Source of the DNA: Clostridia bacterium
GTDB taxonomy: Bacteria; Bacillota_A; Clostridia; Christensenellales; Aristaeellaceae
Direction of reading: 5' to 3'
Assembly: GCA_017938785.1 (NCBI GenBank)
Contig: JAGBAU010000083.1
Span: 1 to 5,029, forward strand
Length of the DNA: 5,029 nt
The position numbers and the translations under genes are program-made. Numbering within the stretch: position 1 is the stretch's first letter; every line of letters starts with the position of its first letter. Shown here one piece after another: positions 2,950-5,029 of this stretch. The notes below the pieces were generated by a model. The model worked only from the letters and a program-made list of their open reading frames with translations. It did no database searches and was not told where the DNA came from.

Positions 2950-2970
2950 CTATGTTTCATTTACAAGATA
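2940..2970. repeat. Short direct repeat covering both -35 boxes
   Basis: CATTTGACAACTAT (2940-2953) and CATTTACAAGATA (2958-2970) are near copies 18 bases apart, differing mainly by one inserted base. The first contains the minus-strand -35 box and the second the plus-strand -35 box. An 18-base offset is nearly two helical turns, so two copies would face roughly the same side of DNA, as expected for paired activator or repressor half-sites. Part of the similarity follows simply from both being -35-like, so this is tentative. Confidence 0.3.
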
Positions 2971-2988
2971 GGCAAATTCTGCTATACT
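2960..2988 (+). promoter_or_regulatory. Sigma-70-type promoter of citC and the downstream kinase-SAD gene
   Basis: TTTACA (2960-2965) and TATACT (2983-2988) are separated by 17 bases, each one mismatch from the housekeeping consensus. The predicted start is near 2995, leaving a short leader of about 23 bases before the citC ATG. Its -35 box is 10 bases from the -35 box of the opposite promoter, so the two polymerase sites are back to back and a single bound regulator could affect both. A perfect TTGACA at 2943-2948 on this strand has no good -10 box at normal spacing. Confidence 0.8.
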
Positions 2989-3017
2989 TTAAGCATGATA
3001 AACAGGGAGGTATGGGC

Positions 3018-3998
3018 ATGTATCTGGAGACCGGCAGCCCCATGCGGGGAACGATGCTCAGCCGCCTGAAAGCCTTCCTGAAGGACTGCGGCCTCACCTA
3101 CGACGAGGGCGTCGATTTCTCCTGCGCGCTCATCGAGGATGACGAAATCATCGCCGCCGGTTCGCTGGAGGTTGCCACCCTCAAGTGCATCGCCGTATCC
3201 CCCCTGCACCAGGGCGAGGATTTGACCTCCCGGCTGATCACCGAGCTTCGCCGGGAAGCCTTCAGCCGTGGACACGACCACCTGATGCTCTTCACCAAGC
3301 CGGGCAACCAGTTCATGTTCCGTGAATTCGGCTTCTATCCCGTATACCGCACCTCCGGCTGCCTGCTGATGGAGAACAAAAGGGACGGGCTGCAGAGCTA
3401 CATCGCCTCCCTGGACGCACCCCACGGGGGAACCATCGGGGCCATCGTGGGCAACTTCAACCCCTTCACCCTGGGCCACCGCTATCTGATCGAAACCGCC
3501 GCCGGGCAGTGCGATCACCTGCACGTGTTCGTGCTCTCCGAGAGAAAGAGCGCCTTTACGCCGGAGGTGCGCATGGAGCTTGCACGGGCGGCCTGCGCAG
3601 ACATCAAGAATATCTCCTTCCATTTCACCGGTCCCTACCTGGTGTCCACCGCCACCTTCCCCAGCTACTTCATCAAGGACAAGGCGCAGGTGGGCGGCAT
3701 CCACTGCGGTCTGGATGTGGGCGTATTCGCCGAAAGGATCGCCCCGGCGCTGGGCGTCACCCGCCGCTTCCTGGGCACGGAACCAATCTGCCCCGTCACC
3801 CGCTTCTACAATGAACAGATGAAGGCCCTTCTGCCCGGGCACGGAATCGAGGTCATCGAAATCCCCCGGCGCGAAGCGCAGGGCGAAGCGGTCAGCGCAT
3901 CCCGGGTGCGGGCGCTGCTCCAAGAAAAGAACTTCGCGGCCATCCGGCCCCTGGTGCCGGAGACCACTTATGATTATCTGATCAAAAACCACGGTTAG
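3018..3998 (+). CDS. citC: [Citrate (pro-3S)-lyase] ligase (acetate:SH-citrate lyase ligase)
   Basis: This 326-residue protein uses ATP and acetate to acetylate the thiol of the CitD prosthetic group, switching on the lyase (EC 6.2.1.22). The N-terminal part has a GNAT-like look (LKCIAVSPLHQGEDLTSRLI at 55-74, then FREFGFYPVY at 101-110). The C-terminal part is a nucleotidyltransferase with GNFNPFTLGHRYLIE (145-159), containing the TxGH variant of the HxGH motif. FPSYFIKDKA (214-223), LGVTRRFLGTEPICPVT (245-261) and SASRVR (293-298, the ISSTxxR-type motif) follow. All are typical of CitC. The start at 3018 is chosen because GGAGG (3006-3010) lies seven bases upstream. The in-frame ATG at 3012 is too close to it, and the in-frame TTG at 2943 precedes the predicted transcript. 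In many bacteria citC heads the citCDEF operon; here it is divergent, so activation and synthesis of the lyase are driven by separate promoters. Confidence 0.95.
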   Translation: MYLETGSPMRGTMLSRLKAFLKDCGLTYDEGVDFSCALIEDDEIIAAGSLEVATLKCIAVSPLHQGEDLTSRLITELRREAFSRGHDHLMLFTKPGNQFMFREFGFYPVYRTSGCLLMENKRDGLQSYIASLDAPHGGTIGAIVGNFNPFTLGHRYLIETAAGQCDHLHVFVLSERKSAFTPEVRMELARAACADIKNISFHFTGPYLVSTATFPSYFIKDKAQVGGIHCGLDVGVFAERIAPALGVTRRFLGTEPICPVTRFYNEQMKALLPGHGIEVIEIPRREAQGEAVSASRVRALLQEKNFAAIRPLVPETTYDYLIKNHG

Positions 3999-4003
3999 GA
4001 GGG
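3997..4003 (+). promoter_or_regulatory. Ribosome binding site overlapping the citC stop codon
   Basis: AGGAGGG begins within the citC TAG stop, six bases from the next ATG when measured from GGAGG. A ribosome finishing citC would cover it, so the following kinase-SAD gene is probably translated from the same mRNA and coupled to citC. No promoter is possible in the ten-base gap. Confidence 0.8.
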
Positions 4004-4008
4004 AACAC

Positions 4009-4953
4009 ATGGCATACCATCGAATGCAACAGAGCCTGATCCTGGCGTCCTTCTTCGCCCCCCGCGGCCAGAAGCGCATCTACGATCTGGGCATGCAGAT
4101 TGCACAGCTGTACCTGACCCCCTTCGATAAGCTGATCGGCATCATCGGCGACGCCGGCTCCGGCAAGAGCGCCCTGGTCAAGGGCATGTTCCCGGGCCTG
4201 GAGCTCACCAACGATGATGACGGCGTGAACGTGCGCCCCCTGCCCCTACTGGACATCAACGAGCCCCGCATGGGCTTCAACTTCTACACGCCCCACACCT
4301 ACCACCTGGACATCCGCTTCGAAACCGGCTTCACCCAGCCCCACGTGCTGGCGGAGGCCATCATGGAAGCCCTGCACCAGGGCAAGCGTGTCGTCGTGGA
4401 GCATTTCGACCTGATCTATCCCCTGCTGCCCCGCAATGCAGACCTGATGATCGGCGTGGGCGAACAGGTTCTGGTCACCCGTCCCACCATCTTCGGACCC
4501 GAGCCGGATGAATTCACGAAAACCGTGCATTCCTCCCTGCACTACCGCCTGATGGCCCACACCGCCGAGGACCTTTGCGAAATGCACATGGAGCCGGTGC
4601 TGGTGGACATCTGCAAGCACGATGACATTCACCACGGCTTCGTGCTGGCCTTCAAGGAAATGCCCCCGCTGATGGATCTCATCGAGCTGGAACGCAAGGT
4701 CAACGAGGATATCGCCGCCGACCTGCCGGTGCACTACCACGATGAAAACCACATCGCCGTAGGCGACCGCCTGCATGAATGCAGCGGCCCCCGCACCCAC
4801 GTGAGCACCACGGGCAAGATCAAGGGCTTCCGCCTGCACCACGAAATCGTCTACGATAACCAGATGCACCGCTACCTGCTGGTGGGCTTCGTGGGCGAGG
4901 ATTCTGAGGAAAACCTGAAGAAATTCCAGAATCGCAAGCAATTCATCTTCTGA
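4009..4953 (+). CDS. P-loop kinase-like protein fused to an alanyl/threonyl-tRNA synthetase editing (SAD/AlaX-like) domain
   Basis: This 314-residue protein has two parts. Residues about 35-170 look like a P-loop NTPase: the Walker A motif GDAGSGKS (47-54) follows the strand KLIGII, and KRVVVEHFD (126-134) is a Walker B-like strand, loosely like uridine-kinase-type folds. Residues about 175-295 resemble the editing domain of AlaRS and AlaX. LMAHTAEDL (181-189) sits where HTATHLL is expected, GFVLAFKEMPPL (210-221) where the RxxFDF strand lies, then LERKVNEDIAADLPV (227-241), and LHECSGPRTHVSTTGKIKGF (255-274) matches the CGGTHVxxTGEIGxF block. The zinc/catalytic pattern is altered: HxxxH reads H184-TAE-D188, and CxxxH reads C258 then H264 with two extra residues. 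Loss or change of deacylation activity is therefore likely. It has no signal peptide or membrane segment. Tight coupling to citC suggests a role linked to the lyase, but its substrate is unknown. Clostridial nucleoside kinases also pair these domains, to my knowledge in the opposite order. Confidence 0.75.
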   Translation: MAYHRMQQSLILASFFAPRGQKRIYDLGMQIAQLYLTPFDKLIGIIGDAGSGKSALVKGMFPGLELTNDDDGVNVRPLPLLDINEPRMGFNFYTPHTYHLDIRFETGFTQPHVLAEAIMEALHQGKRVVVEHFDLIYPLLPRNADLMIGVGEQVLVTRPTIFGPEPDEFTKTVHSSLHYRLMAHTAEDLCEMHMEPVLVDICKHDDIHHGFVLAFKEMPPLMDLIELERKVNEDIAADLPVHYHDENHIAVGDRLHECSGPRTHVSTTGKIKGFRLHHEIVYDNQMHRYLLVGFVGEDSEENLKKFQNRKQFIF

Positions 4954-5021: not shown

Positions 5022-5029
5022 ATGAAGAA
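5022..5029 (+). CDS. Start of a downstream gene of unknown identity (partial)
   Basis: An ATG at 5022-5024 is followed by AAG and the first two bases of a third codon (Met-Lys) before the window ends. AAAGGAG at 5006-5012, nine bases upstream, is a strong binding site well placed for this ATG, so a real gene very likely begins here on the same strand as citC. Nothing can be said about its product. Confidence 0.65.

Follow-up and report, generated by a model that had tools for sequence, protein, structure and literature searches.

The 5,029-nucleotide contig JAGBAU010000083.1 of a Clostridia bacterium (hereafter the window) carries on its forward strand, at positions 4009 to 4953, a gene with an ATG start for a 314-amino acid protein in which a TsaE-like P-loop domain is fused to an editing-type SAD domain. 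This fusion protein co-occurs almost constantly with the glutamate mutase subunit GlmE in the Bacillota genomes sampled, and its gene lies mostly among genes of the methylaspartate pathway; in the window it stands between citC and a probable glmS. We tentatively read it as an ATP-gated, metal-dependent SAD protein that works beside a GlmE-type protein, with trans-editing as its most likely activity, at a probability of about one third. The open reading frame (ORF), defined by translation, homologues and an AlphaFold2 model, was confirmed as a real gene: it is not a chance frame, because 3931 homologues were found (E≤1e-3) and the motif residues are conserved across 61 aligned members. Each of the two domains is known, their combination is new, and the protein has a strong genomic partner.

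The co-occurrence was measured in a sample of 398 genomes (the phylum of G183), in which the fusion protein was called present at E≤1e-10 and GlmE by PF06368. The fusion protein was detected in 73 genomes, GlmE in 87 and both in 71 (Fisher p 5e-60, uncorrected for kinship). The two carriers lacking GlmE were G299, with only pieces containing stops, and G547, a 1.7-Mb assembly. No fusion protein was found in 16 of the 87 GlmE genomes, a search with the wider alignment A2 included; when the 18 genomes discordant for the two proteins were re-searched with A2, matches were confined to G299 (pieces with stops) and G547. Among 291 genomes of the class of G001, a sample that overlaps the former in at least G183, 10 had the fusion protein (E<1e-100), 15 had GlmE and 9 had both. 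Ten of the 20 matches in this second search, with E values of 1.4e-4 to 9.6e-4 over 48-84 profile positions around the P-loop, were dropped. The named carriers are Bacillota, among them Carboxydothermus, Desulfosporosinus, Desulfitobacterium, Desulfotomaculum, Natranaerobius and Petroclostridium. TsaE works with TsaB and the actin-like TsaD, and by this analogy MutL (GlmL) was considered as a general partner. It was rejected: 18 carriers in which the presence of MutL or of a full GlmE near the fusion gene was in doubt were searched, and in 8 of these no MutL was found.

The gene neighborhood points in the same direction. In 81 fetched loci, glmS, glmL, glmE or mal was present in 64, rph in 51, a DUF4387 gene in 40 and an AtuA-like gene in 39; contigs often stop close to the fusion gene, and these counts are lower bounds. 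No glm or mal gene was matched in the other 17 loci, of which 16 belong to GlmE-containing genomes. A frequent order was glmS-glmL-glmE-mal-AtuA-DUF4387-(fumA-fumB)-fusion-rph-rdgB. Neighbors were identified by Pfam on cluster representatives with mechanical gene calls, and single-linkage cluster 2 lumped AtuA-like with MBL-fold proteins. With GlmE in 71 of the 73 carrier genomes and glm or mal genes in most loci, the protein behaves as an accessory protein of the methylaspartate pathway. The neighbors shared with the methylaspartate clusters of PMC4682846 are glmS, mutL, glmE, mal, mesAB, citDEF/CXG, murI and hgdBC, and in the Fig. 4 legend of that article no named gene corresponds to the fusion gene. 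The AtuA-like genes (e.g., L086:6140-7498) and DUF4387 genes (e.g., L074:11536-11865) are mostly located after mal, and the fusion gene is present in two tandem copies at L093:8477-10389 and L096:8494-10314. In a Carboxydothermus (L103:2459-10640), the genes for murI-like, glmS, glmL, glmE, HgdD-like, BadF-like and MBL-fold hydrolase products are followed by the fusion gene and rph, and the fusion protein is identical to the Carboxydothermus homologue P0121. We would guess that the HgdD/BadF pair is the double-cubane cluster protein and its reductase, a system of C. hydrogenoformans named in a passage of PMC7306483.

The AlphaFold2 model, built from the 61-row alignment (mean predicted local distance difference test score 87.7, predicted template modeling score 0.84), has two domains, and both folds of the P-loop plus SAD architecture proposed in the original prediction are present in it. 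The N-terminal domain (about residues 9-165, positions 4033 to 4503, ranges from the structural alignment of the model) has the TsaE/YjeE fold as its best structural match. Translation and the 61-row alignment locate the Walker A motif GDAGSGKS at residues 47-54 (4147 to 4170), with K53 invariant in all 61 members. By motif alignment, HxDxR (residues 99-103, 4303 to 4317) corresponds to HxDxYR of TsaE, and EHF (residues 131-133, 4399 to 4407) to its EW. The domain thus shares with TsaE (YjeE/YdiB; PF02367), the ATPase of N6-threonylcarbamoyladenosine (t6A) synthesis, the P-loop fold and the order of the Walker A, HxD and Glu motifs. In contrast to TsaE, it has LTNDD for SPTF and EH for EW, so that HxD and Glu are retained and SPTF and Trp are missing; it carries an added SAD domain, and it scores below the curated cut-offs. 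As a single sequence the window protein gave 15.1 bits with PF02367 (cut-off 26.6) and 17.9 bits with TIGR00150 (cut-off 60.1), and the highest TsaE score among the fusion copies seen in carriers was 25.8 bits; 58 of the 61 members, scanned singly, matched TsaE at E≤1. A separate canonical TsaE was found in 20 of 20 carriers tested. The domain had been described as kinase-like: the P-loop stands, but the fold and motif order are TsaE-like, and a uridine-kinase type was not shown. Among the structural matches shown TsaE was best and no uridine kinase was seen, which does not exclude one. Foldseek matches to aminotransferases and SepSecS (prob 0.2-0.7, rmsd, or root-mean-square deviation, 13-18) were set aside.

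The C-terminal half was the part on which the original prediction could have failed, and the model gave it an SAD fold of the AlaX/AlaRS/ThrRS type (about residues 173-311, 4525 to 4941, from the model alignment and hhalign). By alignment and hhalign, the presumed metal site consists of HTAED (residues 184-188, 4558 to 4572) and CSGPRTH (residues 258-264, 4780 to 4800). Walker A, HTAED, VNEDIAADLPV (residues 231-241) and CSGPRTHVSTTGKI (residues 258-271) all lie in the translation where they had been placed. H184, E187, C258 and H264 are present in 61 of 61 members, and D188 in 60, the remaining one having His; hence the five residues singled out at the outset (K53, H184, D188, C258 and H264) are all conserved. 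The replacement of the second His by Asp and the Cys-His distance longer by two residues were likewise correctly seen: the family pattern is H-x3-D...C-x5-H, which does not match the HxxxH...CxxxH of editing domains, and its Cys motif is C-x-G-P-x-x-H, whereas editing domains have CGGTH or CxGPH. Relative to AlaX, AlaRS and ThrRS SAD domains (PF07973), the family also lacks 21-28 template residues ahead of the Cys motif, and its domain sits behind a TsaE-like domain. The site may bind a metal. With tRNA_SAD (PF07973) the window protein scored 12.0 bits, under the cut-off of 24; 47 of the 61 members, scanned singly, matched at E≤1, and one homologue exceeded the cut-off (27.9 bits). In hhalign, the family SAD half aligned with 7 AlaRS-type sequences at 97% probability, with HTAED on HTATH, and with 3 AlaX-like proteins at 32%. 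With 8 ThrRS the probability was 96%, and the alignment begins past the HTAED motif. C190 and C202 were rejected as family-wide residues: they are invariant in the window-clade alignment, yet each is Cys in 25 of the 61 rows. In the SAD-containing nucleoside (uridine) kinases of Firmicutes the SAD domain precedes the P-loop domain. The fusion protein has in common with them a P-loop and an SAD domain in one chain, but its order is reversed, as predicted (Walker A at 47-54, SAD from ∼173), and its P-loop is TsaE-like.

The association extends to genomes in which glutamate mutase seems incomplete. Eleven carriers (G315, G577, G554, G358, G531, G396, G367, G326, G403, G345 and G383), selected because their GlmE scores or context looked unusual, gave no GlmS-like match above 39.7 bits, versus 209 in the control G341, and MutL was not found in 8 of them; nine such rows on the tree require three changes. 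At L115, L117, L125, L127, L129 and L130 the GlmE homologue matches the profile only from position 107-148 on. R100, R149, E171 and Y177 have substrate-binding roles in GlmE, as described in passages of PMC10947579. When these residues were mapped through motif and spacing, nothing matching R100 was present in the six homologues, and the counterparts of R149, E171 and Y177 were lost in the 5 that cover the region (L125 does not). The genomes of these six gave neither a GlmS-like match at family level nor MutL, and the six homologues appear to be derivatives of glutamate mutase E that no longer act as mutases. In five of the six cases (five examined), K53, D101, E131, H184, D188, C258 and H264 of the fusion protein are intact. 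The protein therefore tracks a GlmE-type partner and not the mutase reaction. A GntR-type gene precedes the degenerate GlmE gene at both L115:8294-9508 and L130:6815-8110.

In the window, the forward-strand citC (3012 to 3998; TIGR00124, 312 bits versus a cut-off of 262) precedes the fusion gene; we chose its start at ATG 3012, although the ORF list has TTG at 2943. On the reverse strand lie citD, the acyl carrier subunit (2592 to 2915; TIGR01608, 105.8 bits versus 63.5), a citE-like lyase subunit gene (1710 to 2588; TIGR01588, 303 bits, under the cut-off of 443), citF, the alpha subunit (295 to 1710; TIGR01584, 598 bits versus 501), and the start of a class I fumarase alpha-type gene, probably a mesaconase subunit, truncated by the window edge (3 to 278; NF004885, 90.5 bits on the fragment). 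The last 8 bases (5022 to 5029, forward strand) are the start of a further gene, probably glmS, and resemble the glmS start context of L002, L003, L004 and L057. A gap of 10 nucleotides separates the citC stop (3996-3998) from the fusion-gene ATG, and a ribosome-binding-site-like AGGAGG (3997 to 4002) overlaps that stop, an arrangement with which translational coupling to citC is plausible. Ahead of citC there is a sigma-70-like site (2960 to 2988, forward strand; consensus match only), and the region of the divergent citD and citC starts (2898-2988) holds three such sites versus 0.8 expected in the scanned stretch.

The place behind citC, which the original prediction had called fixed, is seen in the window and fails in the family: a cit gene of any kind was present in 7 of the 81 loci and citC in 6. 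In these seven, fumB-fumA-citF-citE-citD is divergent from the fusion gene, and citC precedes the latter in six, no citC match being found in L003. In L002, L003, L004 and L057, glmS-glmL-glmE-mal lies downstream of the fusion gene; in L058-L060 the genes that come next belong to one cluster, identified as citX-citG in L058, where it was scanned, and the glm genes are on the far side. The eight cit-linked rows, the window included, form a single clade (SH-aLRT, the Shimodaira-Hasegawa-like approximate likelihood-ratio test, 99), which requires one change on the tree. The tree was built quickly and has a long branch at L131; the cut-short copy L133 was left out, the copies of L072, L117, L121, L132 and L134 are outside the ORF set used for the tree and the residue check, and the L097 copy was called short. 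The constant cit linkage expected of a citrate or citramalate lyase accessory protein was thus absent, and the association proved to be with the methylaspartate pathway, which citramalate lyase ends. The relevant passages of PMC4682846 and PMC8473912 give this pathway as glutamate to 3-methylaspartate, mesaconate, citramalate, and pyruvate plus acetate, with cit-annotated genes clustered with it. The window cit genes are probably those of its citramalate lyase, because four relatives of the window run on into glmS-glmL-glmE-mal; the assignment draws mainly on context, because citE is under the citrate-lyase cut-off and citC, citD and citF are over theirs.

How the protein might act can be pictured as follows. 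It would bind ATP in the manner of TsaE, and ATP binding or hydrolysis would gate entry to the SAD site for an acidic amino acid, free or esterified to tRNA, while the protein acts alongside, or bound to, the GlmE-type barrel. The reaction would be trans-editing, in which tRNA wrongly loaded with an acidic non-protein amino acid is hydrolyzed; in ordinary carriers this amino acid would be (2S,3S)-3-methylaspartate, the product of glutamate mutase. Editing of 3-methylaspartyl-tRNA would explain the place of the protein in the methylaspartate pathway. Three points speak against it: the changes in the metal set, the reduced length of the SAD domain, and the persistence of the protein in lineages whose GlmE seems non-mutase, where another substrate would be needed. 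Those lineages are better explained if the TsaE-type ATPase assembles, activates or repairs the GlmE barrel, with the SAD as a non-catalytic metal-containing docking or amino-acid-binding domain. We rank this possibility close behind editing. In its favor are the altered SAD and the fact that the protein follows GlmE and not the pathway, being kept with GlmE in the 11 genomes where GlmS was not found and in the 8 of 18 carriers where MutL was not. It is weakened by the 16 GlmE genomes that do without the fusion protein, and it does not account for the use of an editing fold whose metal set is conserved. Clostridial glutamate mutase, moreover, is not known to need more than GlmS, GlmE and coenzyme B12.

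A ligand sensor is a more doubtful explanation: the SAD would sense glutamate, 3-methylaspartate or uncharged or charged tRNA, and the ATPase half would signal to control the pathway. The operon position and the occurrence of SAD folds outside editing enzymes (mitoribosomal chains are among the structural matches) fit a sensor, but no DNA-binding or signaling domain was seen in the fusion protein, and the conservation of both presumed sites resembles that of catalytic ones. That the protein is a t6A-related tRNA-modifying protein (TsaE plus a ThrRS-like SAD) unrelated to glutamate mutase, linked to it through an old operon beside rph, rdgB and yfcE, is improbable. The frequency of rph, the TsaE fold and the ThrRS-like C-x-G-P motif agree with it; yet no rph was found in 30 of the 81 stretches, glm genes being present in many of these, presence of the protein goes with GlmE, and every carrier tested has a TsaE of its own. 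Least probable by far is the function first proposed, binding of a ligand (nucleotide or acyl-nucleotide) tied to the lyase, the prosthetic group of the lyase or the acetyl-ligase. The citC-fusion-citXG order in L058, and probably in L059 and L060, and the order in the window suit it, but cit genes are confined to one clade, and as a general function it is unlikely because 74 of the 81 fetched stretches show no cit gene.

The family goes by the NCBI name 'alanine-tRNA synthetase second additional domain-containing protein', which covers one domain only, and elsewhere as TsaE, lantibiotic ABC transporter, alanyl-tRNA editing protein or hypothetical protein. In open-licence PubMed Central text no description of the fusion, or of its link with glutamate mutase, was found. 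The steady company of GlmE, even where this subunit seems to have lost its own partners, suggests that the two may be connected in a way not described so far. In a bolder picture, which we consider unlikely, the protein would be a factor for trans-editing or tRNA sensing, powered by its TsaE-type half and devoted to a GlmE-type barrel. It would tie the B12-dependent glutamate mutase to tRNA quality control, and in some lineages the B12 chemistry would have been lost, with the ex-mutase subunit retained only as a partner of the protein. Should a tRNA that bears 3-methylaspartate or a similar acid be what the protein edits or senses, this would reveal how cells in which a non-protein amino acid is a main metabolite exclude it from their proteins. 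Should the protein act for GlmE instead, a TsaE-type ATPase would have taken on a role other than t6A synthesis. In both cases the tight association with GlmE, even with an apparently non-mutase GlmE, provides a defined two-gene system for testing.
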